Made by a program: the position numbers and the translations under genes. DNA of 64,000 nucleotides, from contig CM069872.1 in the NCBI GenBank assembly GCA_036172665.1, positions 38,922,101 to 38,986,100 of the forward strand. The letters run 5' to 3'. The number at the start of each line of letters is the position of its first letter. Within the stretch, counting starts at the first letter, position 1. Below, piece after piece: positions 1,951 through 62,111 of this stretch. The DNA comes from Prosopocoilus inquinatus (lineage: Eukaryota > Arthropoda > Insecta > Coleoptera > Lucanidae). The notes beneath the pieces are model-generated. The model was not told the origin of the DNA. It searched no databases and was given only the letters and a program-made list of their open reading frames with translations.

Positions 1951-2631
1951 TATACAATGACCGCCAAAAAGTTCGACAATTTTTATTACTGATATTTTTG
2001 AAAAACTTTTTGCGCCAATAGTTTGTGCACGTTCAATAACCAAATATAAGTAGGACAACTAGGGCAACTTTTAGTGTCGCTAAAAATAGCACTTATTTAA
2101 GATACGAAAATTGTTGTAACTTGGAATATCTAGACATATTAGACAAAATTGTGGTATGATTCAATAGTTATTTACAAAATGTGTCTCGATTGCGAGACAA
2201 AATTTCCTTCGATCTAGTATTTCGAAAAAAGGAAAATTTTCGATATTCTCATTTTGCTCAAGATGTGACGAAGTAAATGGGCACTTACTTGGTATTTACC
2301 TCTTACGAGTGGTTAGGTTATTCATTTATATCCATAAGTAGTATTTAATACAATCAAATTTGCTCTTGGGTTTTTAATTGTTGCGTGCACAAGAAAATTT
2401 GACACGAATTTTCACTTTTCTGGCGCAAGTTTACATAAAATTTTTTAAACATATAAAATAGCGACATCTTACTATCGCTTTTTAACCTAACATTGCAGTA
2501 GGATAGACAAATTGAAGCGGGATTTGCTCCTAATGAGTCCCCCATGCAAGGCGGCCATGCTTGCTGTCAAAGCATAATGAAAGATTTTAGAAAAATTTTG
2601 TGCAAATCGTTTTTGATTGCAGTGAGAACCT

Positions 2632-2696
2632 CGAGCAGCTTCTGGACAGCTGTTTCAGCCCTGCTTGGGGCTTCTTCAGCGGAAACGTAGCTCGAC
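2632..2696 (-). ncRNA. Hammerhead ribozyme motif, type I (copy 1)
   Basis: Read on the minus strand, the 65 nt contain CUGAAGA, a 5-bp stem II (AGCCC/GGGCU), GAAA, a minimal stem III (C-G closing an AGCU loop) and a GUC cleavage triplet. Stem I has an outer 6-bp helix (UCGAGC/GCUCGA), a 3x1 internal loop and an inner helix GUUUCCG/CAGAAGC with one C-A mismatch. All invariant core residues are present. Activity is inferred, not shown; the mismatch may weaken stem I. It is the mirror image of copy 2. Confidence 0.7.
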
Positions 2697-2798
2697 ATTC
2701 CCACTGCACACCAAAAACGACTTGCCCAATTTATTCGCAAATGCGATGTAAGAATGATGATAAATTGGGCAAGTCGTTTTTGGTCTGCAGTGGGAATG

Positions 2799-2863
2799 TC
2801 GAGCTACGTTTCTGCTGAAGAAGCCCCAAGCAGGGCTGAAACAGCTGTCCAGAGGCTGCTCGA
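2799..2863 (+). ncRNA. Hammerhead ribozyme motif, type I (copy 2)
   Basis: Best example on the plus strand. Outer stem I is 2799-2804 with 2858-2863 (UCGAGC/GCUCGA). The internal loop is 2805-2807 against 2857. Inner stem I is 2808-2814 with 2850-2856 (GUUUCUG/CAGAGGC, two G-U pairs). The core CUGAAGA is 2815-2821; stem II is 2822-2826 with 2833-2837, loop CAAGCA. GAAA is 2838-2841; C2842-G2847 closes the AGCU loop; U2848-C2849 completes the GUC triplet, so predicted cleavage follows 2849. Hammerheads with a very short stem III are known from Penelope-like elements and retrozymes; this match is by structure only. Confidence 0.8.
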
Positions 2864-3704
2864 GGTTCTCACTGCAATCAAAAACGATTTGCACAAAATT
2901 TTTCTAAAATATAAAATTTTTTGTTATTACTTTTGATTTCTTGATTACACAAATCTTCTAACCCTGACGTAGCCTAAGTAGACCGAAAATTTCAAGAATT
3001 ACATCTACTCTTTGGTTTGAACCCCTTTAAATCCATACTTATAAAATCGACTTTGGTATAAACAGTAAATACGATTTCATGGCTACCAAGAAAAAGATCG
3101 ATTTTATAAGTACCAATATTAAATGGGTCCTAACTGAAAAGTAGATGCAATTATGAGAAACGTATTATGAAGAAATCAAAAACATTAACACGAAATCTTA
3201 TGTAAAAAGGGACTTGCACCAAAAACGTGAAAAATTGTTCCAATTTTTTTATGCATCCAATAATTCGTAACCCATGAGGAAAATTTATTCTATCAAATAT
3301 TTTTTTATGAGTATGAATGAATAAGCTAACCACTCCTAAGAGTTAAATGCCAAATGACCATCGACTGCTTTATATCTTGAGCAAAACTGAGAAATCTTCC
3401 TTTCTTTCGAAATGCTGAAACAAAGGAAATTTTTTCTTGCAATGAAGACACACATTTTGTAAATAACTATTGAGTTTTACTAAAATCTTGTCTAATATGT
3501 CCAGCAATTCCAAATTACAACAATTTTTTAATTTTCGTGTCTTAAATAAGTGCTATTTTTAGCAATACTAAAAGTTGCTCACCAGCATTGTCCTACTTAT
3601 AGTTGGTTATCGAACATGCACAAACTATTGGCTCAAAAAGTTTTAAAAAAAATCAATAATAAAAAATTTTCCCATATGGTGCGAACTTTTTGGCGGTCAC
3701 TGTA

Positions 3705-6473
3705 TATTTGACTACTTTGAAAACGTTCTTTGAGGACTTATAAAAAGAAATGCAGTAGTCCTAGACACTCCAAATTTTACTGTAAGATGCAAAGTATAAT
3801 AAAGATTATAAAAACGTAATTCATTATACTAATTTGAAAATTTCACATTTTTGTCGCATATCCAGCCTTTTACGGTCTGTTCTAGTATGCGTCGCCTTTT
3901 GTGCTTTTGCATTTCTTTTGTCGTTCTTTGAAGATACTAGTTCGTTTCAAGTTTATTTTATTTTACGTTGTCATCCACCTGATGACTGCTCATAGTTCTA
4001 GTTTTACGACGACGCATTCCTTTACTAATTTATGTTATACGAACAAACGATTATAAAAAGCCTTTATTATTGCTTAAAAATGAATTAATTGGTTTGCTGT
4101 AACTATTATTTCTCAAAATTGTTTTGATTAAAGACGAATTTAGAGATTTTACCAAAGCCCTAAGCTTATTAATTTTGAAAGCTTTCAAATTTTTTCAGTG
4201 TCATCTGGGTCTTTAATCAATACCATTTGAGAAATAACAGAAAACTGTTTTTTGTCTACTATTTTTTGCTTTCGATAGTAAATACTTCTGAACAAAATTA
4301 AAAGACCCCCAACAAAAACAAAATTACTTTTCCCGAAATGGCACACTGTACCACGCTAAAACATTTCAAAACCCTACTTTGAGGCGTATTGTTACTTATA
4401 ACATCCGTGCAGACAATCTCATGTCTTGTTAGAAAAATAATGTATAACATCTGCCCGTATTGTTATGTGAATTTTATTAAGTTATATGAAATATTCGTCC
4501 AGAATTTTATAATTGTTTCAAACTAAATTCACAATAGGCACCTACAGAAATATTAAATGGGATTAATGAACAAAGAACTCGTGCAGATTTCCAGGTGTGA
4601 TCTAGATTGTCCGTGAAACACTAACAAATAACGCCCACGCCGATTCGAAAGTGTACGAAATTCTTCTATTAGCTCACAGGCCAACGGATTTCTCATATTT
4701 ACATTCGGTAACAATCATGATGTAATAAACGGTACGACTGTTGCAATTGCGAAAGCTCAAAGACGAAGTAGTCCATTTTTCGTCCTGTTCGACATCCGCC
4801 TGCAGAGGTCGAAACGTTGCACCGGAATCGATTAGTCACCGAAAAGGTCAAAGGTAACGAACGCAATTTGCAGCTTCAGGAAGTCGCTTAGCAATCTGGA
4901 TCGGCTGTAATTTCTGAGCTTGAAATCACGTGCTGGTGAACGGCCAGCGGTTTCAATTTTCCTATACCTTAGATTATTTCCTATACCTATGTAGAATTAA
5001 ACTGAATCCAGTTTTCCAGCTTGCATACACACATGATGAAAGTGAACGATATTTGAGATGATTCCGACTTTCACCACCGGCGATAGTAGACATAGGTATA
5101 AAATTATAAATACTTGCGAGCGATCAATTACTTTTAATTGAGGTAAAGCTGACGTTTCACAATTCTATGCTCGCCTGAAACACCAAACAAGGATTAAAAA
5201 TATCGTTTATCCGTTTCTATAATCTCACATAATTAACTGTTAATTTTTTGCACCACAGCGTTACAAATTGTAAAAATATTTTCAACTTGTGTTGGGTAAG
5301 AGCAAGAAACAAAAAAAAATAATTGCACGTGATTGATGATGTTGAAGAATTAAATTATGATTTGATAATAACATCAATTTGAACACTGTTTTTTATTCAA
5401 GCCACTGTACGCTGCGGATATTAACAACACTCCTAATTAATAGTACGTGTAACACGCTACAAATGTTACGTTTCATTTACGAAACTTTTAATTTCTTTTT
5501 TCTTTTAATTGTAAACAGTAACTTTTTAGTTTAATAATTTTATTATGAAAGGTTTGAAAAAATAAAAGAATTGTACTTAAATACAAAGAACATTATCAAA
5601 AGCGCGCTTCCTTTTTATTCCGAAATGATAAAATTGTTCACTTTATTCAATATCAGGATTATTAGTGCTTAAGACAGGCATCGTCAGCAGCAAAAAATGA
5701 ACAGTAAAGGTGCGGTAAGCAAATGAAAAAATCACTGAAATAAGTTAAGGAACAGCATAGGTACTAAAATGGGACTTTGTGGGACACCAACACTTATTGC
5801 TGTTGAAGCAGATATAATTTACGTTAGTCGAGGTTAGCAAGTATGAGAATGAGATTCTAAGGTACACAATCTTACAGTCGAAAGCGAAAAAATAGCAGAA
5901 AAAAACAGTTTCCTGTAATTGTTCTTTCTCAAAATTGTACCGTTCAAATACAACTTCGCAGATGACATTTGAGAATTTTGAAACATTTCAAGAAAGATGC
6001 GATTCAACACGTTCCAGATGCACTCGACCTGCAGTTCTCGAACGCACCTATTACCTTATTTAGTTTTTTTATAACAGTTGTAATCAACCCCTACCCGTCC
6101 ATTATTATTCTTGACAAAGACTATATATAAAAATAATAATATTACATTCAGTGCATTAATAAAATGATGAAAATCATCGGCGTTAAATCTGTTTAACCCT
6201 TACGTGCCCAAGGGATACCTCAAATGTTTAAATAAATAATTTCTTAAATTGTGAATTGAATCCTTTAAAAAACTTTCTTAAATATATTTCTTATAAAATT
6301 ATTTAATCATTTTCTTTACATTTTAAGTAAATTATTGAAGATTTGTAACTGAAGCAATTTGCATCTGAATCGTGTGTAAACGTAAAAAGCTTCTCTGCGC
6401 GCTTGTTCTATACTTACAAGAACGTCAGATGAAAGTCTCCAAACATTGTGTGGCTTGAAAATATTTAAGTGAT
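3705..6473. other. Intergenic DNA, no gene seen
   Basis: No coding exon recognised. An inverted repeat of about 40 bp lies at 4096-4138 against 4206-4250 (arms related to TATTTCTCAAAATTGTTTTG). A stretch of higher GC at about 4600-4980 stands out from its surroundings and could be a regulatory patch or an untranslated exon, but nothing in it decides this. Confidence 0.4.
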
Positions 6474-8008: not shown

Positions 8009-8690
8009 ATAATGTCACCACTTCATCCACGTGATAATTCAAACTGAGTAACAAACTGTAATAAAGTTTCGTTCTAAAGTACACAGTTTCAGAAAAACTG
8101 AGTGTTTAATGTTAAATTTTTTAGAAAAATGTTAGGTCAAAAAGCGATAGTAAGATGTCGCTATTTTATATGTTAAATTTTTTATTTTTTATAAGTTTAA
8201 AGTTCACCTAATCCTTTCTCCGTTCACCTAATAATCAATTCTAATAAAAAAAAACCAATAAGGCAAATCGTTTTTCAAGAATACGACGTATTTTTGTGAT
8301 AATTAAAAAAAAATCAGATAACTGTTAGTGTTAGTATGTTTTCACATAACAAAAATTACAAAACACGTCATATTCTTGAAAAACGGTTTGCCTTATTAGT
8401 TTTTTTTTTAATTTGAATTGATTATTAGGTGAACGGAGAAGTTTAAAATTAAAAAAAAATCGAATATGGTCGTTTTCATAATCAGACTTTAAGGAAGCTT
8501 TAATTTAAAGTAACTTTAAGAATAGGGAAACAAATGTATTTTTTTAGGTTAAATTAAAGTCTAAAAAAAGACTAAAGTCCTGTTATGAAATCGGCCCTCA
8601 GTATTTCTGAAACGGTTTACTATAGAACAAAACTTTATTAGAGTTTTTACTCAGTTTGAATTGACATTCACGTAGGTGAAGTTGTAACAT
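8009..8690. repeat. Nested inverted-repeat cluster
   Basis: Three nested layers are visible. Outer arms of about 90 bp: 8009-8100 against 8598-8690, ends related to AATGTNACNACTTCA. Middle: 8120-8190 carries the AAAAGCGATAGTAAGATGTC module of the hammerhead repeat, and 8465-8602 matches, inverted, the flank of another copy at 34685-34795, including a GGGCCGATTTCATAACAGGA-type terminus. Inner arms: 8218-8290 against 8360-8442, joined by a short loop. The hammerhead itself is missing here. This records at least three successive insertions or rearrangements. Confidence 0.65.
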
Positions 8691-17400: not shown

Positions 17401-20400
17401 AAAAAATTGTTAATCAGCGATTAATTTAATTCTCTGATTAAGGAACGTCATTGAACGTCATTTTTGTGAAACTGGGGGTTAGTGCAGTTGAATAGGGCGA
17501 GGCACAAATTAGAGCCAGCACCAGGGCCAGCACTCGCGCACAGCTTATTATGTTTTACTTTTTTCTACTTTTGCGTTCCTAATTTTTTTCTACTTTTGTG
17601 TTGCTAAATTTTTTCTATTTTTATCTTGCTTTTGTTTACTTTTACCTGAGACGAAAAAATAGAGTAAATATAGTTGAATAAACAAATGTGGCATAAAGTG
17701 GTTGTCTTGCTTTTAATTTGATTGTTGCAGTAAATTTTTCCTCGCAAAAATCAATAATAAAATTTCTTCCCCTATATTACAAATTTTATGACTGACATTG
17801 TACACAAATTTCACTTTCATCGAGCTGGTAGAGAACGTAAAAATTAAGAGTAAATTATAATGTACTAGATGTATGGATAATGAGAATAAAATTAATTTTC
17901 GTTGACAACTTAACAACTTTTAAGTTTAAGTTTTATGTTCTGTCCATCGTTATGCAGAGATATTTTATTTACATTGAATAAGTTCTATTCGTTTTAGATA
18001 AATCGCATGAAAATTTGCACATTTAATGAAAATTATAACATTTCCGTTGGAGTTCTGAAGTTCTGAGTTCCTGGAAAGGTACACAGCATTCTCTATATAG
18101 CTATTTTGGCACTAATTGGGGCCCCATCAGCAGGATATCGCGGTTTAAGTTTTAAAAGTCGTAATCGATAAAATGCTTTCTCAATCATTTTGCACTACCT
18201 TTGGACACCAAGCACTAAGGGCCGATTTTTAATCGAAGTTTAACTTAGATACCAACAACTCAGACGACTTTTACATACAGAAGTGGAAAATAAAGAAAAC
18301 GATAGACCAGGTAAAATTAAGTAGACGATCACATGGGAAGAATTTGGACGAACAATTATTTTAACAAAAATCAAAAATTGTTTTATTGGAGTCTCGAATG
18401 AGGAAACCCGGGGAGGATATTCTGAAAAATATAAAAAAGGATAAACACGGAAGGAATAACGAGAAAAGATAAAATAATGAGAAGATAGATCCAACATTTG
18501 CAGCAAATTTTAGAGGAAAACATGAAGCGAGAAATGACGACAGAATAACGTCCGATAGACTAATTAATGACCGAGGTCATCGTCGTCGCAAATCTGAATG
18601 GCGTTTTCCAAGGTCGGCAAGCTATTATGGTCGCACGTAATACTGACGATCAAAAGATTGAAAAAGAAGTTCTCATTGGGAAAACCTTGTTAACTACGAA
18701 GAAGTAACTACCATTCCGCCTGATGAACATTAACTGTTTCCCCGTCAACATTAAGAAAGGGACGATCTTGCGAAGCTGCGCCAAGGTGACCTCCATCTTC
18801 CGCCAACTTGAGGTAAACGTATAAGAGACGAAGGTCCCAAATAAGTTGTTGGAGAAATCATGTCGACAGCCCAGTAATTGACTTCGGAGCAGAAGACAAG
18901 GAACCTGTTCGGTCGCTATCAAGATGTGTTCGAGGTGGAAAATTGACCGAAGGGAAGAACCGACGTTGTCAAACACATGATAGAGATCGGGGAAGAAAGT
19001 CCCATCCATCAAACTCCAGGGAGGTTTCCGTTCGCAAAATGTGAGAAAGTGGAAGGCGTTGTTCGCGAAATGGAAAAGGACAACGTAATAGAACCATCAA
19101 GCAACCCAGGCGTCACCAGTAGTGCTTGCGAAGAAGAAAAATGGAGGCACAAGGATCTGCGCAGAGTATCGGTTGCTCAACAATGTCACTAAAAAGGACA
19201 GTTATCCCCTGCCAAGGTTGATGATACCTTGCATACTCTGGCCGGCTCCAAGATCTTCTCCACTTTGGATAGTGGCAAGTGGAGATAGCGCCTGAAGATC
19301 GAGAAAAAACAGAATTGTCCCTTAGTATGGATCTATGGTAACTCACGGTGCTGCCGTTCGGGTTATCTAATGCCCCAGCGACATTCGAGACGCTAATGGA
19401 GACGGTTCTGTCCTAGTCAACGTGCATGGTGTATCTGGACGACATAATTGTGGTGGGAAAAACGTTCGACGACCACCTGAAGAACCTGTAAGGAGTGTTC
19501 CAGCGACTCCGCGGAGCTGGACTGAAGCTTAGTCTCAAGAAGAACCACTTATTCCAGAAGGAAGTTAATTATCTGGGCCATACTGTTAATGGAAATGAAA
19601 TCGCTGTGGACCCGGTGAAGATTCAGGTGGTGAGGAACAGGCCAACGCCTAAAAATAAACACCAGATAATGAGTTTCCTAATCTGTGTAGTTACTACCGG
19701 CGCTGTGTTCCCGGAGTTGCAGACATCGCTCATAAAACTCACCGAAGACGGTCGCCCGTTTGAATGGGATTAGCACTGCCAAATTAGTTTCGAACAAGTA
19801 AAACAGTACTTGGTAAGCGTGCCTATTTGATAAACGTGACTATTCTGAGTTACCCTCTCTCAGAAGACAAGTTTGTCGTGGACACAGATGCTAGCAATGT
19901 TAGGATCGGTGGCATAATCTCCCAGATACAATATGGGCAAGAAAAAGTGATCGGTTATTTCGGTCAATTTCTATCAAAATCGAAGCGAAATTATTGCGTC
20001 ACTAGAAGAGAATTGCTAGCCGTGGTAGAAACGATAGAATATTTTGCAAGTAGTTGTATGGCAGACACTTCCTTCTGAGAACGGTCCATGCCGCTCTAAA
20101 ATGGCTTCTAGGACTCAAGAATCCTGAAGGACAAGTCGCGCGGTGGATCGAATAACTTCGGGAATACGATTTTGAGATTCAGCATCGGGCAAGAACTAAC
20201 CATAGGAATGCCGATACTTTATCGAGAAGACGATGTGCTGAAGACTGTTACCGTCTGGAGGAGAAAGTAGCCAAGGCTGCGAAGACAGCTAAATGGCAAG
20301 GTGAAGAATTGCGGCGAAATCAGGATTTGAAATTGGTGCTGGAATGGAAAAGTAGAGAGGCAAGGTCTATTTGGGAAGAGATAGCACCGTATACACCATC

Positions 20401-26400: not shown

Positions 26401-28161
26401 TTTAAGAGGCTGCGATGAACTCTTCGTATACCAGTATTCAGTGGAGCAACAGTTAACATCCTAACGGTGTTAATTCGCACTTTCCTAAGCAAATATTTAA
26501 CGGGTTATTATTATTCAATCAAACATATTGACGATACTTATTAGGGCGATAATATTTATAAAAAAAAAGACGCAGGAATTTATGCGGACGTCATATGTGA
26601 TCTTGAATGTCGACAATAAAATTAAAGTTTTTAGCAATTTCGTCTCGTTTATTGAATTAAACATAAAAAATCAAAATCGAAAATAGAAATGACGATCGCG
26701 TTCAGGGACGAGCCCGACTTGATAACAATGGTGTACTTGACATGAATCGTTCGGTATTCATGCGATGCACTTATTGTTTATGTGTTTACAGAGTTTTACT
26801 TCCCATAAACGATTGATAAATGGCATTAGCGGTTTCGAATGGTGTTCAGATTTATGCGGTTTGTTACGCTACATCTTCACCTAACTAGAATTATTGCCTC
26901 GGTGAAGTGATAAATTTTTAAAGAGCTTCAAACGAAAGCCGTCTTTTTCTGTTATATCAATAAGTCATTGGAAAGAAATTACTACGTACATGCCTTTCAT
27001 GATTTGTTATTACCTTGAGAGATAAAAAAAATATTCGCTATGAAATTCTTCTTCGTTATCGTAAGTAGTAATCATGCTTCTTATAAGTAAAAATGTCGGT
27101 TTGCAATAAAGGAACGTTGATAAATATTTATCGTTAATGCGCATGCATGACACGCGTTCATAATTTCTATAATCGTCAGGTACATTACCGTGCATGGGCC
27201 CAATGACGACCATGACGACCAGCATGAGAAGCAATACTTTCATCTTCCTGTTTCCTTCTCCTTTCTTGAATGCTACCTGGAAGGTTTCGATCACGTGTTT
27301 GTAGTCGAAAAAGTCTCTGAGGAACGCGCACGGTTTGTCAGGTAGGACGGGAACGTCAATTTTTTTCCGTTCGTGTATCTTATAGTAACCGTAGTAAAAC
27401 GCCATGATGTACATAACGGCCGATATGGAAAAGACGCCGTAAAAACCGATCTTCTTGAAAAGGATTCCGCTCAAAGCAAGTCCCACGGGAATCCCCAGGG
27501 AACAAAAAACATTCACGACCCCAATCCGCAGAGTTCGTGTCTCTAAAGTAGTTACGTCCCCTATGTAACTAAATATGCCCATGAACATGGTGAACCAACC
27601 ACCGGTTAACGCGGGGAATAACCCCTCGATGAAGGCGTTCACCTCCATGGGAAGTTCGTAAAAGAAATACGTGCATAACATAAGGCCAATCACAGTTAAG
27701 AATTCTCCGACGATGGGCATTAGCATGCAGGGTTTTCGCAAACCCCATCGATCACTCCATGCCCCGACGAAAAGTATCAGGAATGCGGGCAGTCCACTTT
27801 GGAGGATCGTCTTCCAAACAGTCATAGACGCCACTAACTGTTGAACTTCCGCTTCCTCCTTGGTGTAATTCGCCGTGTTCCTCTGACTTAACGCATTACA
27901 CGTTTCTTCTGGGTAAGCCAAATTAACACGGCATGCTTTTTCTATGCTGAGGTTCTGCGTGGCAAGGCTGGCTAAGACGCAAGGCATGATATAGCATGCT
28001 AACATCGGTTCCACCGTGATATTTGACTTGATTACATGCATCTTTTCAGTCCAAGGCAAATCCTTCCACTTCTTTTCCTTCGCAGCCTTCTCATCTTTCT
28101 GTTGATCTTTGATTTCCTTGGACTTCTCGCACTTCGCTTGCAGTTCACTTAATTGCGCCAT
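12752..28161 (-). CDS. SLC46-family MFS transporter (proton-coupled folate transporter-like), six coding exons
   Basis: Spliced on the minus strand from exons 28161-27189, 14447-14346, 14286-14149, 13294-13211, 13154-12998 and 12941-12752; every junction has GT-AG signals and the frame stays open, giving about 547 residues. The protein has a charged cytoplasmic N-terminus, a glycosylatable first outer loop (NYT near residue 98), MFS motif A ([12 protein letters not shown], about 133-144) and about a dozen hydrophobic segments. The junction between exons 1 and 2 restores the family signature [21 protein letters not shown]46 members move folates, antifolates or other organic substrates with protons across plasma or lysosomal membranes; substrate here is unknown. 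The acidic, alanine/proline-rich C-terminal tail is cytoplasmic. Start chosen at the only ATG preceding the conserved region; a possible acceptor at 28191-28192 suggests an upstream non-coding exon. Confidence 0.88.
14992..15524. mobile_element. Foldback element with CAGG(A/C)TGTTAATAAA ends
   Basis: Left end CAGGATGTTAATAAA and reverse-complemented right end CAGGCTGTTAATAAA are flanked by TA (14990-14991, 15525-15526). Inverted similarity extends about 75 bp inward. It lies in the large intron of the SLC46-like gene. End type and TA target match the larger foldbacks at 23.6, 28.5, 50.2 and 53.8 kb. Confidence 0.6.
15382..15749. repeat. Tandem duplication of about 183 bp
   Basis: 15382-15565 and 15566-15749 are diverged direct copies, each containing CTACTATCACCTGTCAGAG-type sequence, then TTATTTATTCTTCCATTATA and AATTAAATAAT. 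The right end of the foldback element just upstream is included, so the duplication arose after that insertion. Confidence 0.65.
16474..16641. mobile_element. Pogo/Tigger-type MITE, 168 bp
   Basis: Ends CAGTCGACCTCCATAACTC (left) and, reverse-complemented, CAGTCGCACCTCTTTAATCG (right) resemble pogo-like (Tc1/mariner superfamily) termini; TA flanks both sides (16472-16473, 16642-16643). No coding capacity. Intronic in the SLC46-like gene. Confidence 0.65.
17384..17481. repeat. Short inverted-repeat MITE, 98 bp
   Basis: TAACGTTGGGTTTCACAAAA at the left end and TAACCCCCAGTTTCACAAAA reverse-complemented at the right form the termini. On either side (about 17300-17383 and 17540-17660) lie related T-rich sequences ending in GAGRCGAAAAAATAG, a direct repeat that the MITE appears to separate. 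Confidence 0.5.
18960..21180 (+). pseudogene. Decayed Ty3/gypsy-type retrotransposon pol (RT, RNase H, integrase)
   Basis: Fragments in several frames appear in the order expected of Ty3/gypsy pol. Reverse transcriptase: [11 protein letters not shown] at about 19010, [13 protein letters not shown] at about 19350 and the active-site motif YLDD at about 19431. RNase H starts near 19860 with KFVVDTDAS and has [10 protein letters not shown] remnant H2C2 zinc region lies near 20550-20650. The integrase core has [15 protein letters not shown] at about 20735 and ends with DGMVERFNR near 20970. Many stops and frameshifts make it non-coding. No LTRs, gag or env were recognised, so exact ends are unknown. 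It lies in the 12.7-kb intron, antisense to the SLC46-like gene. Confidence 0.85.
22614..22897. repeat. Inverted-repeat element with GC-rich ends
   Basis: Plus-strand CGCGCTTTGCCGTGCAAAAC at about 22642 is matched in inverse by GTTTTGCGAGGGCAAAGCGCG at about 22870-22890, followed by further inverted similarity (GTGCGAACAA against TTGTTCGTGC). The left outer end GGCGAGTACACACCAAGCGC looks like a DNA-transposon terminus. Clearly more GC-rich than neighbouring DNA. Overlapping frames on both strands are by-products of the palindrome. Confidence 0.45.
23076..23216. repeat. Perfect nested hairpin element, 141 bp
   Basis: A perfect 34-bp inverted repeat (23076-23109 against 23183-23216, containing AAGCTACTCATAAGCTAAAT) encloses a second perfect 15-bp hairpin CTGCCAGAGAGAAAT / ATTTCTCTCTGGCAG (23111-23125, 23133-23147, 7-nt loop). 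Arms without any mismatch imply recent origin or sequence correction. Lies in the large intron. No target duplication was clear. Confidence 0.8.
23613..26064. mobile_element. 2.45-kb foldback element, ends CAGGGTGTCCCAA
   Basis: Left end CAGGGTGTCCCAATGATCTG and reverse-complemented right end CAGGGTGTCCCAACGATCTG are flanked by TA on both sides (23611-23612, 26065-26066). Inverted similarity runs inward for about 870 bp on each side: for example GCCGCGTGAC at about 25965 mirrors GTCACGCGGC at 23696, and the AAATCTCACAAT block near 24280 mirrors ATTGTGAGATTT near 25060. The centre (about 24490-24860) is AT-rich with no transposase frame. Located in the first coding intron of the SLC46-like gene. 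Confidence 0.8.
27189..28161 (-). CDS. SLC46-like transporter, coding exon 1
   Basis: Encodes residues 1-324: the lysine/glutamate-rich start, [18 protein letters not shown] leading into the first membrane segment, motif A and the N-terminal half of the carrier up to VVIGPMHG. The frame stays open to 27010, but that tail ([11 protein letters not shown]...) is intron read-through: the splice donor CACG|GTAATG lies at 27183-27188 and the next exon supplies the family sequence. Exon length of 973 nt leaves phase 1. Confidence 0.85.
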
Positions 28162-28548
28162 GTTTTTCTCGTGATTGTGATGGATCGTACCTTAAAAAAA
28201 GAAGAAGCATTTTAAATATCTTTAATAATGTAATTTATTCAGGTAGAGTATTTGTTAAAAAAACGCAAATTATAGAGTTACGGCATTCCATCGCATAAGT
28301 ATTATTTCTTAATTACAGCTTTGCGGTAATTATAGTTCGAGTCATGTGCTTGCAAAAATAGAATGGATCTTACGTGCGTTATTGTTACTATTATTATTAT
28401 TTTCCTTGGTTTCAGTTTGATTGTATGGTAAATGGAATTTTTTAATGACTAAAAAGCAATTTGTGTTATTCTTCAAACTTTTAATTTAAAAATTGAAAAA
28501 ATAAGAATTGATTGAATTTTGTGTTTGTGCTTTTTTAAGATGTGTATA

Positions 28549-30375: not shown

Positions 30376-33300
30376 TATATGTAACCGGTCCTGTAATATA
30401 AATATACTTATAATTTAGCAAGAAAATATCTAAATTATGTTATAAATCGCCAATGCACAGAAAAAGCAAAACATAAAAATGAAGGCTGCAAAATAATCGG
30501 CGACAACTTTCGCCATTAAATAGGATGACAGCATGGTCACACTTTTTAACGAAAGCATAAACGCCCTTTTGCGGTACCCTATTTCTTGTGTGTACAAGAT
30601 TTTGCTTTAGCTATTTATTGTAGAAATTGATCCAAATGCAGCACAAGGAATGAGATCAAGTAATGCAGATGAGCATGGTCTAGATCAGGGGTTCTCAAAC
30701 TTCCTTGATCATCAATCCCCTTACAAGAAAATTAAAATTTCCATCCATTATTAACGTTCTTAAAACATGTACGCATAGAGATACTGATTCTTTTTGATTT
30801 GGTTTGTCGCTAGATTTTTAAAATGTTGAAAGAAACGTAGAGAGATTTAGAAATATTTTAATCGAAGGTTATTGTCATATCATTTAAATTGAGAATTTGG
30901 CAGCCGATTAAATATGACCCATTTTTGCTTAAAATTAAAAAACAACTCGGTAAATACTAAAAATAAGTAAATGTAATATCATTTTTACTATCTCTTCAGG
31001 GGGTAACTGAAACTGTAATAAGAAACACAGTATTACTTTTAAAAAATAAGTTAGGTTTCTAAGTTATTAAATGAACAACGTGTATATTTGAAAATAATTT
31101 TAGATTACGCGAAATGAAAACCTACACAACTTTTGTTAATACATTTTCTTGATAGAATGAATCTAAAGACGCATTTTTGCACTTTCCCAGAAGTTTGCAT
31201 TTAATTCAATTTTTTATGTAATCAATTGATTGACCTTTGTTTTTTCTTTTATTCTATTTTATTTAATTTGTTTTTATTTGTTAACTGACGTTTTTTTTAA
31301 AAAATTGTTGCAAATCGTTTTTGATTGCAGTGGATCCTAATGCAATGTCAAGTCAAAAACTGACCGTATAATGACGCTATTCAAGCTCTTTATCAATTTA
31401 TCATCTTTTGTTTCTGTTTTTCATTTCTCTGATTTTATTTGATGATTTTTTATTTTTTAATTATTTGCTGATTGACTTTGTTTTTCATATACGCGTTTGG
31501 CGTTTATTTTATTTTATTTATTTTGGGCACTATTTTATTGTTTTATTAGATTCAATGGTATTTGATTTTTATTTTGATCAATTGATCGTCTTTTTCCTTT
31601 TCTTTTATTCGAGCTTATCCAATTTAATTATTATAAGATCGATAGCAAGTTAAGTACAATTGAATGTAGATATGCAAAAAGGAATCGAATACTCTGAAAA
31701 ATAATGATGTTCGTGTATATCGGTGTTAATAATTATTTCTTAAACTTTTATTAGGTATATTAAAGCACAGCTAGGTACACTATAAGAAATTTTATAAAAA
31801 GCTCTACTGAAGTTGTTAGAGTTCAATTATTATGACGCTGTAGCTTAACCGCCGAATACCAACTAAATCTATCGAGGAAAGAATAGTGTCTAGTAGGAGG
31901 AAATAAATTAAGGCCATTTCTCACAATCAATTTAAAATGAAAATAATCGAAAATTGCAAAGTTACACATAGCTTTGGATCTAAACCTTCGCTCACATTGT
32001 TTTTCAGCAAATTACCACGAAGCACTTTCCTTTATTTTTTTGATTAATTATCTGAGTGCTGTTTTTAGCTTTTACTAAAAACTTAATGGCAGACAAGTGT
32101 CGCAAGATCTGACCTCCTTTTACGTTCTAATGGTCGCTATTTTGCAAAACGGCGTATTTCTCAAACATAGTGGCTGTGCTACTCAATGCCATCACAAAAA
32201 AATCTCTATTATTACATAACTGAAAATTAAAACAAGGAAAGTGCAACGTCAACCAATTATCCCGTGCACTTGTATGACCACAACCAATGTCAGTAACTCA
32301 AAGAATGTGGCAAGCCGATGAATTGAAAAAAGTCTTCAAACTGTTTTAAACGCAGGAATGAATGTTATGCCTGCAGCCACAGTAAAGAATCGATAGGTAG
32401 GAGCGCGAGCGTTCGGAACATGCACGCTATTGCTAGAAATATTTTAATGTTATCTCATGCTGAAGGATTAAACACCGTTCTCTCTCGCGCATTAATATTT
32501 AAATTCCTTTTTCAGCTGTCCCTAATTGATTTCGTGTTTTCGTGCACATATCGGCACACGGCCGTGTGTTCTTGCAGCATCACCTAATATATTGTTCACC
32601 GTGTCTACAACTCTGAACAGCTAATTGGGGTGATTTTCTCATGGAAAGCTTTTGTACAGCATTTAATTTTTTTCAACAAGCTAATAAATCTTATTGCAAT
32701 ATCCTAAATGGCACAGTCGAAGGACATTTCTGCATCGTCTCTTCACCGCCGGAGGCTATCAATTTCTGTTACTAATTATCAAGTCAAATATTACGCGGTT
32801 CGCCAAGAGTAAAGGTGAATATCCACTTTGCTAATTTATTCATGGTTCACCTTGGTTCTTCGCACAAAAACTTTGCCATTACTAAACAGTTTAACGCACT
32901 CATCGATCAAAGATTGCAATAAACATATTAGGTAATCCTTTCTTCAGAGCCAATCTGCGCTTAATTTTTAGTGAATTGTACGTAAAAGTGGACGAAATAA
33001 TTAGCTTTGTGCTTCCATAAATAGTATTGTTACTATTTATGAATAGCAAGGCATTGTTATTGTTCAGGTGCGAGATATACCAGCTTGTGCGCGATACCGG
33101 TCAAAAATTATCACAGTTAAGGCAGGAATGTGTTATTCACAGGCGATAAAAAAAATTTGCTTTGAAAATTAATTTAAAAAAACCTGGCTGTGAATTGTGT
33201 AAGAATCGCCTTTATTACTTCGTTCTAGTAGAGACGTTAGGTTGCCCAATCAACAAATTAAAATTTGCAAAAACTGACCTGAAAACAGATTTTTGGGACA

Positions 33301-34390: not shown

Positions 34391-34792
34391 TTTAAGGGCC
34401 AATTTTATAGTAGAACATTAAATTAAAAAAAAAAATTGTGCAAATCGCTTTTGAATGCAGTGAGAACCTCGAGCAGCCTCTGGACAGCTGTTTCAGCCCT
34501 GCTTGGGGCTTCTTCAGCAGATACGTAGCTCGACATTTCTAAAATCTTTCATTATGCTTTGACAGCAAGCATGGCCGCCTTGCATGGGGGACTTATTAGG
34601 AGCAAATCCCGCTTCAATTTGTCTACCCTACTGCAATGTCAGGTCAAAAAGCGATAGTAAGATGTCGCTATTTTATCTGTTCATTAAATTTAAAGTTACT
34701 TTAACCTAAAAAAATATATTTGTTTCCGTATTCTTAAAATTACTTTATATTAAAGCTTCCTTAAAGTCGGATTATGAAAACGATCATTAGAA
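34391..34792. repeat. GGGCC-ended MITE carrying a hammerhead repeat
   Basis: Left AAGGGCCAATTTTATAGTAG and, inverted, a right end reading GATCGTTTTCATAATCCGAC; the 8.5-kb relative has GGGCCGATTTCATAACAGGA. The inner part (about 34434-34690) is a hammerhead repeat copy from which the palindrome's second arm has been deleted: the ribozyme is followed directly by the GACAGCAAGCATGGCCGCC and AAAAGCGATAGTAAGATGTC module. Inserted into the hAT-like element. Confidence 0.55.
34469..34533 (-). ncRNA. Hammerhead ribozyme motif, type I (copy 3)
   Basis: On the minus strand: outer stem I UCGAGC/GCUCGA, internal loop, inner stem GUAUCUG/CAGAGGC with one A-G mismatch, CUGAAGA, stem II AGCCC/GGGCU with loop CAAGCA, GAAA, C-AGCU-G stem III and GUC. 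All invariant core positions are kept. Same 65-nt length as the other copies. Confidence 0.7.
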
Positions 34793-48197: not shown

Positions 48198-48622
48198 TAC
48201 TACGATGCTCAACTTAAATGATACCTTCAAAAAATTTTGTTGTAAATCGTTCTTGATTGCAGTTAAACTCTCGAGCAGACTCTGTACAGCTGTTTCAGCC
48301 CTATGTGGGGCTTTGTCAGCAGAAGCGTAGCTCGAAAGTTTCACTGTAAACACAGAAAAAACGATTTAACAATTTTTTTTTAACTTCAAATATACTTTGA
48401 CAGCAAGCATGGCCGCCTTGTATGGGATGACTTGTTACGCAGCAAACTGGCTTCAATTTGTCAATCCTAATGCAATGTTAGCTCAAGAAGCGATCGTAGG
48501 ATGTCACTGTTTAGACTATTCATTAAATTATATCACTTGACAGTTTCTTAGTACTTACGCTGAATGTTCTTAAGGGTATAGGTCGCCTGCAGGAGTAACA
48601 TTTAAGTTAAGGGTCGTAGTAC
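48198..48622. repeat. MITE family B copy interrupted by a hammerhead repeat
   Basis: Ends TACTACGATGCTCAACTTAA and, reverse-complemented at the right, TACTACGACCCTTAACTTAA match the uninterrupted element at 7023-7151. The left 30 bp and the right block GCTGAATGTTCTTAAG are separated by a hammerhead repeat (about 48226-48553) with ribozyme, the AAGCATGGCCGCCTTG module and the GATCGTAGGATGTCACTG end. Only about 20 bp of family B is missing at the junction. Confidence 0.65.
48271..48335 (-). ncRNA. Hammerhead ribozyme motif, decayed (copy 4)
   Basis: Same architecture as the other copies on the minus strand (outer stem UCGAGC/GCUCGA, stem II AGCCC/GGGCU, GAAA, GUA). The first core reads CUGACAA instead of CUGANGA, so G8 is lost, and inner stem I has mismatches. 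G8 takes part in catalysis in studied hammerheads, so this copy is predicted inactive. Confidence 0.6.
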
Positions 48623-48674: not shown

Positions 48675-48785
48675 AGCAACGTTGCTATACTGGGTGTGTT
48701 GTTGTAATCTCCCGAATAGCAACGTTGCTTTACTGGATGTGTTGTTGTCATCTTCTGTGAAGTAACGTTGCTATACTGGAGATTC
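48675..48785. repeat. 43-bp tandem repeat, about 2.6 copies
   Basis: Units start at 48675, 48718 and 48761 with AGCAACGTTGCTATACTGG or close variants, followed by GTGTGTTGTTGT. Each contains the palindrome GCAACGTTGC. The second unit differs by a few substitutions and the third is partial. Confidence 0.7.
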
Positions 48786-51070: not shown

Positions 51071-51114
51071 CAGTTGGTGATTGTTCAAACAATCAATTTA
51101 TCAAAAAATTTGTT

Positions 51115-51240
51115 GCAAATAGTTTTTGATTGCAGTGAAAACCTCGAGCAGTCTCTGTACAGCTGTTTCAGCCCTCTTTGGGGCTTCATCAGCAGAGACA
51201 TAGCTCGATATTCCCACTGCAAACCAAAAACGATTTGTCC
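51115..51240 (-). repeat. Single-arm hammerhead repeat unit
   Basis: Bounded by GCAAATAGTTTTTGATTGCA (51115) and, inverted, ACAAATCGTTTTTGGTTTGC (right end about 51237), so the ribozyme sits inside a 22-25 bp inverted repeat. Continues to 51255 with the AATTTATTCGCAATTGAGAT spacer seen in the palindromic copy, then stops. Confidence 0.65.
51144..51208 (-). ncRNA. Hammerhead ribozyme motif, type I (copy 5, best paired)
   Basis: On the minus strand: UCGAGC, loop UAU, GUCUCUG, core CUGAUGA (the commonest natural version), stem II AGCCC/GGGCU with loop CAAAGA, GAAA, C-AGCU-G, then UA giving a GUA cleavage triplet, CAGAGAC, single U and GCUCGA. Inner stem I has seven Watson-Crick pairs, where copy 2 keeps pairing through G-U changes. 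All core positions are intact; predicted cleavage follows the A of GUA. Confidence 0.8.
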
Positions 51241-52339
51241 AATTTATTCGCAATTGAGATATTCATTCAATTTATCGTTTTTTTTTTCTTAATGTACGAA
51301 GCTAAATTCACTGCACAGACACGTTTAGCAATTAGTGTTTTAAGAGGACGATAAATCCGTGCTTCTACAAAAATTTAGCAATTCATATAGGAAATTTTAG
51401 TAATAGCAGAACGATTAATCAGTTCAGTTAATGGTGATTGTGTTCATAATCTTAATTATTGTGATTTGGATATTGTTTAATTTGTTCAAGAATTATGATT
51501 ATTTAGTAAAAAGAGATATTTCTAAAAATTAATTAACGGCAGATGACTCCAACTCCACATCATCGAAAAGAAAATTAAATAGCGCATCTACTAATGGTGA
51601 AAGATATATGGCATTCTATTAAAAAATAATAGTTATCGTAGTTTGAATTTTCTCAAGTTCATTCTTCTGCAAAAAAACCACAAGTTCTTAGCGACATTTG
51701 TTCGGAAGACAGCGATAATTTTTTTTTTTTAAGTTGAAGAACGCGAAAATGTTTTACAAGATTACAAATTAGTCATATTAAAATTCAGTCCGGAACTGGA
51801 AAATATAAAAATATACTATATGGTATTCCATTTAAAACAACGGAGTAACATAACGCCCAGACCAAACGAAACACACTGTATTCACCAAACTAATTTTAAA
51901 ACACGCTCCACGTGATACGAAGTGACTTTCATTTGAAAAATGTTTTGTAAAATGAGGAACTAGAGAGATATGAAGGAAGCCACCTTAAGTGAAACATCCT
52001 GTAAACTGTTAGGTATATTTTTTAATAACTATGACAATACCAAATTAATTGTTTTCGCTGTAGTTATTTCTTTCGTCGGGTGCAATCGGAGTATCTAATT
52101 ACATTACAAAACAATAAGTTTTAAACAATTTTGTAGGTATATAAATACTTATTTCGTTCAAACTTACTTTAATTGTAGGTTTTCCATTCAACAAGTAATT
52201 AAATTATTTACCATCTACGTATTTAAAGATATCGTTTTTAATATTTATCAATGAGTATAAAAATACATCCTTATTTTAAACCTTCAATTATAATTGACAT
52301 TTGCCTTTGCTCTTATGTTTAAACGTAATAAGTTAAATA

Positions 52340-54352: not shown

Positions 54353-56239
54353 TATATGAAACAGACAATTACGAAAATATAGATTGTTAGTTCATAGTTT
54401 TGACGAAGATGTTTGCGCCGTTTTTGTACGAGATTTGCTTCCACTTCAAATCTATGGCTACAATCTAAACTTGCGTTCCTTTTACACCGATTCGCAGATA
54501 ATCTTACCTCATTTCCCCTTCCTTACTTAAATTACGCGTTACTTTTACTTCAAGTGAGCTAAGCAGAAGTGAGGAAGTTACTGTATTTAATAGCGACATT
54601 CAATTCATCGACAATGACGAAAATGGAATCATGGTCTTTCCGACCGCATGATATAAAAAAATATTAATGAATTAGATAATGTAATAATTAAAAAAATCAT
54701 CAAATCACCTAGTTCAGACTCTTATTTTCTCTGGATTAAAAAAAACTATATAACTTAAGTTGTAACTCGAACATTGAATATTTGTAGCCATTACCCAGTG
54801 GCGGATTTACGCATAGGCGCATAAGGCGCGCGCTTGGGGCCTCTTAAATCGAAGGGGCCTCAAATTCAAATTTTAGGCTTCAAAAAAAAAATTGTTCCAT
54901 TTTAAATTCTTTACGCTTGTCTTAAGTATAGTTACTTAATAAATTATATTACAGTGAAACAATATCGGTGCGGCATTTTGACTAGAGATTTGCTGTTTCC
55001 GTTTACTTCGTCTTTATTATTGATTTTAAACAAAAAAATGTTTTCTTTGAAAAATTGTACTGTCCGAGCAAAATCAGGAACCAAACACTTGAATGCAAGT
55101 GTGTCCGAAACTTATTATAATAACAAAAAAAAATATTCTGTATACATTCTTTTCGTAATACCTCGGAAACCAGTACTCAATTTCGAGTCATGAAATACAC
55201 AGTGACTGAAAATTTCATTTTTTTTTTTAATTTAATGTTGTAGAAAATGAAACAAGCATTTTTTTCAAACAAGGCCAATTTTATTATTATTTAAAAAATC
55301 ACATTTTTATAAATACTGTTTTAATAAAAACAAAATCAATGAAAAACTTACGAAAAAAATTTTTTTTTATTTGAAAAAGTTGCTCTGTACTACATTAAAT
55401 TAAAAAATATCAAATTTTCATGATTTCTGAGATTTTTCCAAGAAAAATGTATTTCTGCAGAATGCAATTGCGTAAAACAATAATATAATCAATTTTCTTT
55501 TGGTTATTACAACAATAACATTTCAGACACCCTGTAATCAAAAAGCTGAAATTTATGTTTGATTTGTGAAGTTGCTCCAACAGTAGAACATTTTCTTGCT
55601 TAAAATCAATAGTAAAATCGTCACTTTGAATTCTGCAACATAAAATTAAGAAGTTTGAATTTTTAAACAGATTGCTGTTCAAAATTTAAATTTAAGCATT
55701 GTTTCTGAAGTTTTTTTGTAAATAGTAAGTTTCTCTGTTTTGTGTAAAGTTAATATTAAAAAAAAAAAAAACTTTTCTGCTTATAAACTCGATCTGTGGA
55801 CACACTATACATGTGCTCAGCTCAGTTCAATAAATGGGATTTTTCTTCATTCTGGGTTATTCTTTAATTTATTCATGCAGTACACTTTTACAATCGTTCA
55901 AATAAAATAGGGAAATGTTAGGTGAAATTTATGTTTTGTGATATACAGCGTCGACACTGAGAAATGAAAACGGCTTAAGAGTAAACTGCCCTTGTATTAA
56001 AAGCTGCTACAGTGAAATTCAAAATTACAGACTCCTATCTCAAAAATTAATTACGAATCACCTTTACACATACTACACCACATTAGCAAAGAGGGTAGAA
56101 TTAAAGTATTTGGCGAGGTAACAGGGATGAAGTTAGATTAAACATATTTCTATTCCTTTAAAATTTATTTAATTATATGGCATTTTATGTGATAAAGTTT
56201 GCAAGTTCTAGGAATTTTTATAGTAAAGTATATTTCAAA

Positions 56240-56445
56240 AACCGATCGTAGGATGTCGCTGCCTTATCTGTTCAGGACTATTACATCGCAATTGCAAATA
56301 AATTCGTCAAATCGTTTTTGGTTTGCAGTAGAAATTTCGAGCCAGGTTTCTGCTGACGAAGCTCAAAACAGGGCTGAAACAACTGTGCAGAGGCTGCTCG
56401 AGGTTTTCACTGCAATCAAAAACGATCTGCAACAAAATTTTTATA
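56240..56445 (+). repeat. Hammerhead repeat, rearranged copy in hAT element
   Basis: Starts with ACCGATCGTAGGATGTCGCT (end of second module), then GCAATTGCAAATAAATTCGT (centre spacer), then one ribozyme arm and its flank TGCAATCAAAAACGATCTGC. Relative to the 2.6-kb copy, one arm and most of the second module are missing. Confidence 0.6.
56337..56401 (+). ncRNA. Hammerhead ribozyme motif, altered cleavage site (copy 6)
   Basis: Plus strand: UCGAGC, loop CAG, GUUUCUG, CUGACGA (core intact), stem II AGCUC/GGGCU with one G-U pair, loop AAAACA, GAAA, C-AACU-G, then UG followed by CAGAGGC, U, GCUCGA. The triplet is GUG rather than NUH, so cleavage is predicted to be lost although the fold is kept. 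Confidence 0.65.
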
Positions 56446-60692: not shown

Positions 60693-62111
60693 ATGCCTCC
60701 GAAAAAACCGAAACTAACGCCCGAAGAAAAGAAGCAACTGAGAATCGAGAAGAGGCGACAGAGGAAACTGAAAGCCGAAGCTAGAAAACGCCAAAATAAA
60801 ATAAATGCTTTAGAAAGAGAGATAAAATACGGAAACCTGACGATTAAGCGCCATGAAAGAAGCTGGAAGAAACTGCTCGTGGACATCGCGATGCCTGAAA
60901 TACGAAAGGAATTGGAATTTGCCTGGCATAACTTCGAGCGAGTCATCGACGCCAAGGACTTCACGATTTCGCTCCTCATGGACGAGATAAGGGACGCCGA
61001 AGAACAGTACATGTTAAATTTTAGGGCTCATTGCGAAAACATAGATAAACTATTGAGGTTATTCCGTGATCAACTAGACGAGATGAAAGTTGATTACAAC
61101 AATACAGTCACCGAATTAAAAGAAGCAGTCGATCGGGAAATCGAAGTAATTAAGAAGTCGCATAAAGACGGAGAAGACTTCCTCAATATGATGTTGTACG
61201 GACTGGAAATGACTCAAAAAGAACAAGAGCAGTTTATACGCTGTGAATACTGCTCGAGGTTGGAAGAAGAAGCAGGAAGATATGAAGAAATAGTAGCCAA
61301 ATTAGAGTACATAAAGAACAAAGATTACGCTAAACTATGGTTCATAACGCATGACTTTATGAAAGAGTATTATAAATCAACGGCAGAAAGACGCAAGCAG
61401 TACGAGTTCCTCAACGCCCAAGACGAGCAAGTCAACGAGTTACTCAGAAACCAGCTGAATAAAATCAGAAAAATGATGAACATGATCAAACAACTCAAGC
61501 AAAAACTCTTAGATTTGCACAACACCCAGGGGCAGACCGTGCATGAGTTGTTGCTGGAGAGAAAATTCTTCGCCGATTCGTTTTGGGCGCTCAAAACTCA
61601 GCTGGAACATGAAATAACCACCGATAATCAGAATTTGATGGTGTTAACGACCGAATCAAACAAATCCGCGGATTACCTAAAACGAATCGAGAAAAAGGGC
61701 GAGCAAATTTTACAACTAGCAGCGCTCTGCCGAAAATACGAAACCCAGGAGGAGAAAATACTGCAGTTTCCAAGTCTTGGCAAAATAACAGTACCTGAAC
61801 CGGATTCACCAATCGATATCGATTTTTACCCCGACATAGTAGACCTGGATTTATTTTGGAAACGCGTCGGGCAAGCAAATACTTTACGTTACAGCATCTA
61901 CGAGGAAAAGGCGTTCTTGGTGAGAGAAAACGAGAAGCTAAAGAAGAAAATTCATGAATACTGCCAATGTTTGGATTGCGACAGTAATTCGGAGGAGAAA
62001 GTTAGAACGGAGAGTGTTTCGAATAAGATCGACGGAAACGACGAATTGAAGAAGTATGAGAAGCAGGGGCTTGATTTGGATGTTCCCGGGGAAATTAATC
62101 GAAAAAACTAA
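60693..62111 (+). CDS. DRC2: Dynein regulatory complex subunit 2 (CCDC65-like)
   Basis: A 472-residue intronless reading frame, near the usual length of about 480. The start is very basic (MPPKKPKLTPEEKKQLR), then comes the conserved N-terminal coiled-coil of the DRC1/DRC2 (NYD-SP28) family at about 50-155, with HERSWKKLLVDIAMPEIRKE and RAHCENIDKLLRLFRDQLDE. Heptad-rich coiled coil follows to about 340. Near the C-terminus (385-423) is the family block LFWKRVGQANTLRYSIYEEK with a leucine-rich helix. DRC2 pairs with DRC1 to form the base of the nexin-dynein regulatory complex, which attaches to outer doublets and controls dynein in motile axonemes; in an insect that mostly means sperm flagella and some sensory cilia. 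No transmembrane or signal sequence. Its stop is 52 bp from that of the convergent ACE gene. Confidence 0.92.
   Translation: MPPKKPKLTPEEKKQLRIEKRRQRKLKAEARKRQNKINALEREIKYGNLTIKRHERSWKKLLVDIAMPEIRKELEFAWHNFERVIDAKDFTISLLMDEIRDAEEQYMLNFRAHCENIDKLLRLFRDQLDEMKVDYNNTVTELKEAVDREIEVIKKSHKDGEDFLNMMLYGLEMTQKEQEQFIRCEYCSRLEEEAGRYEEIVAKLEYIKNKDYAKLWFITHDFMKEYYKSTAERRKQYEFLNAQDEQVNELLRNQLNKIRKMMNMIKQLKQKLLDLHNTQGQTVHELLLERKFFADSFWALKTQLEHEITTDNQNLMVLTTESNKSADYLKRIEKKGEQILQLAALCRKYETQEEKILQFPSLGKITVPEPDSPIDIDFYPDIVDLDLFWKRVGQANTLRYSIYEEKAFLVRENEKLKKKIHEYCQCLDCDSNSEEKVRTESVSNKIDGNDELKKYEKQGLDLDVPGEINRKN

Follow-up and report, generated by a model that had tools for sequence, protein, structure and literature searches.

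Does the 65-nt segment at positions 2799-2863 of a 64,000-nt stretch of the Prosopocoilus inquinatus genome (the window, all of which was analysed) encode a self-cleaving RNA, and what kind of repeat carries it? The segment is confirmed as the type I hammerhead motif of the original prediction. As the overall reading we propose that the carrier is a non-autonomous retroposon, hosted by a scarab-like beetle, with a type I hammerhead close to its 3' end, and that it works as outlined below; we give this a probability of roughly 0.7. Its transcription, cleavage and function we infer from sequence. A beetle hammerhead repeat was not found among the literature titles and abstract openings listed by the searches, and novelty is not established from print.

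A type I hammerhead and its copies

On the forward strand, 2799-2863 contains all parts of a type I hammerhead in order and with zero spare nucleotides; each part that had been claimed can be located (Table 1), and the anatomy matches the class. Cleavage is expected after position 2849 (GUC). In total, the window holds six hammerhead copies (c1 to c6, the segment itself being c2), together with a decayed relative and two fragments that lack the motif. The six copies can be aligned across the hairpin, and the cleavage site is read straight through in every one of them. A covariance model built from these copies returned, among window matches up to E 10, the six copies, the reverse strands of five and, weakly, 18133-18093 (-).

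Judged by CUGANGA, GAAA and NUH in order, three stems and an open stem I, three of the six copies pass the type I descriptor. These are c2, c3 and c4, whose cores are intact, while c1, c5 and c6 are damaged. The two copies singled out beforehand as probably active correspond to c2 and c4, which remain the strongest candidates, although the core of c3 is intact too; in c4, cutting is expected after 51158 (GUA). Four of the six copies have a stem I internal loop reading UAC x U, while c4 has UAU and c5 has CAG there. Three copies share CAAGCA as loop II, the others having CAAAGA, AAAACA or CACAUA. Both loops resemble those of a published hammerhead construct, whose sequence we take to be of Schistosoma origin. 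In the available part of its report, this construct combines a UAC x U internal loop with a loop II of CAAAUA (PMC11489216); the beetle motif has the same kind of internal loop and a 6-nt loop II, and its stems I and II each exceed those of the construct by one pair.

Table 1. Coordinates of the hammerhead, its copies and the carrier elements in the window
Feature	Position	Strand	Remarks
c2 stem I, outer part	2799-2804/2858-2863	+	
c2 stem I, inner part	2808-2814/2850-2856	+	
c2 stem I internal loop		+	UAC x U, between outer and inner stem I parts
c2 core, CUGAAGA	2815-2821	+	
c2 stem II	2822-2826/2833-2837	+	
c2 core, GAA	2838-2840	+	
c2 stem III	2841-2842/2847-2848	+	A-C/G-U, loop AGCU
c2 C17	2849	+	
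c1 hammerhead	2695-2631	-	C-A mismatch in stem I adjoining the core
c2 hammerhead	2799-2863	+	intact core
c3 hammerhead	34533-34469	-	intact core, A-G mismatch in stem I
c4 hammerhead	51208-51144	-	intact core, GUA
c5 hammerhead	56337-56401	+	G at cleavage position
c6 hammerhead	48335-48271	-	G8 to A plus stem I mismatch
Decayed relative of hammerhead	18085-18133	-	BLAST of c4, E 5e-6
c2 hairpin	2760-2910	+	hammerhead plus stem I extension
c1, inverted second copy	2584-2734	-	148/151 bases complementary to c2 arm
Composite insertion	2448-2910	+	5' region, inverted c1, c2; left end approximate
Left insertion-site duplication	2435-2446	+	ATAAAATTTTTT, 12/12, p 0.002
Right insertion-site duplication	2911-2922	+	ATAAAATTTTTT
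Short copy without hammerhead hairpin	8123-8169	-	5' end joined directly to tail
3'-end fragment	31305-31332	-	last bases only, extreme 5' truncation
c3 element	34425-34685	-	5' region joined to hairpin interior; flank repeats AATTTAATG, p 0.019
c6 element	48231-48527	-	fullest single copy, 297 bp, ends approximate
c4 element	51106-51265	-	5'-truncated, ends approximate; flank repeats GATAAATTGA, p 0.011
c5 element	56238-56445	+	inverted piece of element 5' end upstream; start approximate

The carrier element and its insertion record

The motif was said to ride on a small mobile repeat, and the window indeed contains a dispersed family whose copies are built like those of a retroposon. Single copies measure 160-297 bp with a GC content of 38-44%. 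A 5' region upstream of the hairpin, beginning near AACAGATAAAATAGCGACATC, is common to the composite insertion, c3 and c6, and the 3' ends of six copies lie near GCAACAAAATTTTT or GCACAAAATTTTT. The c3 element resembles the composite minus approximately 2594-2797. At the locus itself, the c1/c2 inverted repeat lies between the ATAAAATTTTTT duplications and seems to have entered as a single unit.

Insertion-site duplications were assessed with shifted 33-base flanks for the composite, c3, c4, c6 and the short copy at 8.1 kb, with c5 left out. Four of these five copies gave p < 0.02, the short copy being bounded on each side by a perfect 14-bp duplication, AAAAAATTTAACAT; the 33-base-flank test found no significant match for c6 (p 0.13). 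Summed over the five copies, the match between a copy's own flanks was 52, against a mean of 33 and a maximum of 40 in 44 swaps. An earlier version of the test had given p 0.0015 for the composite, 0.11 for c3, 0.17 for c6, 0.0125 for c4 and 0.009 for c5, the c5 match overlapping the T-rich tail and the c3 flank ending before the element start.

Insertion-site duplications, a defined 3' end and 5' truncation together characterize a SINE-like retroposon, and we read the element as having spread by reverse transcription; in two copies, the enzyme may have skipped the hairpin. A search for pol III promoters turned up, in c6 and c3, just words that loosely resemble the A and B boxes. An inverted-repeat DNA transposon (MITE) was also considered, as the hairpin arms resemble terminal repeats, yet the copies extend past the arms, and both the unequal length of the insertion-site repeats (9-14 bp) and the 5' truncation oppose this assignment.

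Relation to known hammerhead repeats

The nearest known systems are animal retrozymes, Schistosoma Sm-alpha and the hammerheads of Penelope-type elements. The accessible text on animal non-LTR retrozymes describes tandem repeats of low GC content with type I hammerheads, in insects among other animals (PMC7229834). The beetle element could tentatively be placed among them as an ordinary retrozyme, in which a normally tandem unit is processed to monomers, circularized by tRNA ligase and reinserted, its dispersed copies being stragglers; we regard this as the alternative to be taken most seriously, though it is the less probable account. As in the retrozymes of that text, the beetle repeat is short, of low GC and non-autonomous, with a type I hammerhead, and its size and composition lie within the unit described there (about 150-450 bp, low GC). 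Its insertion-site duplications exceed 4 bp, as do those of retrozymes when present, and its stem III follows the invertebrate pattern of two pairs and a tetraloop; the palindromic tetraloop recalls one axolotl retrozyme family (all from the accessible text of PMC7229834). The RNA is also self-paired relative to shuffled sequences (whole-copy z -7.6 for c4 and -2.9 for c6). Against this explanation, head-to-tail copies are absent from the window, where the copies are instead dispersed and single, and the pattern of similar 3' ends with truncation on the 5' side indicates copying from a linear template whose 3' end was defined. Furthermore, unlike the retrozymes as far as they are described in that source, the beetle element extends stem I into a long hairpin and includes an inverted composite inserted whole.

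The original prediction had also invoked Penelope-like elements as carriers of hammerheads with a minimal stem III. Mobility held up; as to the Penelope connection, Pfam detected a Penelope-type domain in none of the ten frames tested (81 frames of at least 75 aa exist), and tandem copies, as expected of a retrozyme, are lacking in the window. That the repeat is the solo end of a Penelope-like element, its minimal hammerheads perhaps acting as dimers, appears unlikely. Short stem III, the two-molecule fold, 5' truncation and inverted pieces would all suit such an origin, and reviews, in the portions available, place minimal type I hammerheads in these elements (PMC6155905, PMC7761336). However, according to the same portions, stem III or loop contacts are missing from the minimal motifs, whereas the beetle repeat carries a Schistosoma-like internal loop. 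The repeat therefore shares with Penelope-like and Terminon hammerheads, so far as the available sources portray them, the short stem III, a possible dimeric action and the retroelement setting, but differs in retaining the stem I and loop II anatomy and in that no coding part was found.

Two further systems offer partial parallels. Sm-alpha, from the part of the report that is available, is likewise of SINE-like size and carries a type I hammerhead (PMC8490949); by comparison, the beetle stem III is short, and no clear pol III boxes were found in the beetle repeat. The satellite hammerheads of newt and axolotl, in the source portions at hand, have a palindromic stem III loop as here and a reported dimer mechanism, but sit in tandem satellite DNA. 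Because the tandem feature is missing within this window and the Penelope-type motifs differ as described, we file the beetle repeat as a hammerhead by anatomy and as a SINE-like retroposon by its insertion record.

Folding of one and two molecules

Correct on anatomy, mobility, loops and best copies, the original prediction of a self-cleaving RNA fares less well in monomer folding. The hammerhead is the minimum fold of the monomer in none of the six copies, lying 5.4 to 8.1 kcal/mol above the minimum. In five of six copies, the minimum pairs GCUG, including core bases, with the CAGC beside GAAA; in c5, just two pairs of this GCUG/CAGC type form. Folded together without constraint, a pair of 65-base molecules from c2, c3 or c4 yields a double hammerhead joined through an 8-bp stem III made of ACAGCUGU, with a gain over two monomers of 3.9 (c2), 3.9 (c3) and 5.1 (c4) kcal/mol. 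The damaged copies gain 5.0 (c1), 2.6 (c5) and 4.6 (c6) kcal/mol and adopt non-hammerhead folds. In these models, the energy gain from pairing is unspecific; what appears specific is the fold reached, the double hammerhead of c2, c3 and c4.

Whole hairpins behave similarly. Two molecules reach the double hammerhead at 3.9 (c2) and 5.1 (c4) kcal/mol below two monomers, whereas hairpins placed head to tail favor it by just 0.9 (c2) and 2.9 (c4) kcal/mol over separate hairpins, all these energies excluding tertiary contacts and concentration. With the hammerhead imposed, stem I comprises 44 pairs in c2 (fold spanning 2765-2897) and 42 pairs in c4 before the core, interrupted in both; c3 lacks the outer left arm of the hairpin.

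These preferences suggest a mode of action for the proposed retroposon. Once transcribed, a lone element RNA would reside mostly in the long hairpin, its core bases paired with the stem III loop. Where two units meet, either as two molecules or within a concatemeric transcript, the self-complementary ACAGCUGU could form the 8-bp stem III, opening both cores so that each RNA might be cut after NUH. Since stem I is long, the products would stay joined, and we propose that cutting is readily reversed. A LINE- or Penelope-type reverse transcriptase would then copy intact or religated RNA from its 3' end, which fits the read-through of the cleavage site in the six aligned copies. As a complete pairing switch, in which the lone hairpin is inert with its core locked and two units form a duplex with two active, reversibly cutting hammerheads, the scheme derives from modeled folds, and we consider it rather unlikely. 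Most invertebrate type I hammerheads are reported, in the available part of PMC7761336, to cut well as monomers, which speaks against a pairing requirement. Retrozymes differ in this regard, with efficient monomer cleavage in coral, slower cleavage in mussel and better cleavage as dimers in axolotl (PMC7229834, accessible text). Slower cutting as a monomer may occur alongside the two-unit form.

If such a switch operates, it would represent a concentration-sensing or copy-sensing ribozyme within a mobile element, and the reverse transcriptase would meet an intact template. With its intact and naturally damaged copies, readable insertions and contrasting monomer and two-molecule folds, this short family would allow a direct test of the dimer question. 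The read-through in all six aligned copies bears on whether cutting aids retrotransposition or merely accompanies it.

Chance, conservation and covariation

A descriptor of CUGANGA, GAAA and UH, with stems I, II and III of at least four, four and two pairs, matches c2, c3 and c4 in the window; 400 dinucleotide shuffles yielded no match. Because a palindrome supplies stem I for free, the stem I requirement was removed in a second descriptor. This matches four window copies, with contiguous stems I of 7, 7, 4 and 1 pairs (seven in c2 and c4), and gives 67 matches in 2000 shuffles, where stem I reaches at most four pairs (three matches). For these statistics, the copies count as a single independent event, since they are of common origin, and the window was itself chosen by a scan looking for such motifs.

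A covariance-model search had been put forward as the check on the motif, and the Rfam scores stayed under their cut-offs. No match in the window reached gathering score, and the sole hammerhead among the matches listed by the whole-window E-value search was HH9, which scored 21.6 bits on c4 (E 0.9, gathering 52). On short stretches, RF00163 gave 23.8 bits for c2 and 26.2 bits for c3 (gathering 34), its alignment to c2 following the proposed register below the cut-off. A long pattern of the motif had no match in genome_contigs or viral_contigs; a shorter one had no match in viral_contigs and one in genome_contigs, in an Acidocella bin, which was judged by eye and taken as chance.

Across the 35-base core, 2 of 23 hammerhead-bound columns vary among the six copies, compared with 7 of 12 free columns (Fisher p 0.003), in a partition that was drawn after the alignment was inspected and that counts position 17 as free, though G is disallowed there and c5 has G. 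Two substitutions account for the bound-column changes: c6 has A in place of G8, and in the stem II of c5 a C has become U with its pairing preserved. The hammerhead-plus-hairpin structure pairs 97.8% of alignment cells, compared with 45.5% or less once one side is shifted. Changes on both sides of a pair affect 2 of 31 pairs, each in the stem I extension; as 28 of 500 shuffles attain this pair count and 19 of 500 the score, the covariation is suggestive only, and by the tool's own warning the signal is inflated when sequences are related.

The decayed relative differs from c4 at 10 of 43 bases, and four of the ten differences form two preserved pairs: at the base of stem II, A-U has become G-C, and in stem III, U-A replaces C-G. 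The chance of two or more such double changes is 0.017; one additional pair is broken. An alternative hairpin explains only the stem II change. The core carries A9 to G and G12 to A, and with A9 and G12 lost, this copy is predicted to be dead. These two bases presumably form a sheared pair in the hammerhead, and the relative looks as if the pair had been swapped. The paired changes in stem I and in the decayed relative fit the structure, if thinly.

A hairpin-forming repeat that matches a hammerhead by chance is, on this evidence, quite improbable. Such a repeat would obtain stem I from its palindrome, leaving approximately 0.03 matches per window to be expected without stem I, and the different fold of the monomer, the equal benefit that damaged copies draw from pairing and the selection of the window by scan would all be in keeping with it. 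Yet the core must also fall in the correct register at the hairpin tip, the loops are more variable than the core, the decayed relative carries paired changes, and the unconstrained two-molecule minimum is a double hammerhead. Highly improbable is a relic of a protein-coding exon: the frame SSYVSADEAP..RAETAVQRLLE is open across 35 codons in all six copies, with 54 synonymous codon differences versus 31 and 21 in the other forward frames, but one reverse frame is nearly equal (52), and the explanation is unlikely because codon positions in the core are alike in variability (3/11, 2/12 and 4/12 varying) and no relatives of the c4 frame were found.

Neighbourhood of the copies

The composite looks like an insertion into an element bounded by inverted repeats at 1951-2443 and 3193-3706. 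These repeats are about 500 bp long and 77% alike, with TGACCGCCAAAAAGTTCG-like termini, and we take the pair to be a mariner-type element from its appearance. Elsewhere in the window, the segment 35284-36700 consists of nested inverted and direct repeats, and a near-perfect hairpin at 36142-36245 matches several microRNA models, all below their cut-offs. A 43-bp tandem repeat of 2.5 copies occupies 48675-48780, about 150 bp upstream of the c6 element. Among other retroelement-like frames, 19788-20075 (+) encodes an RNase H-like domain of reverse transcriptase, and the frame 27013-28191 (-) matches an MFS transporter (PF07690). The window is taken to be beetle DNA in view of the gene at 60693-62111, whose product shares 63% identity with a protein assigned to Trypoxylus dichotomus.
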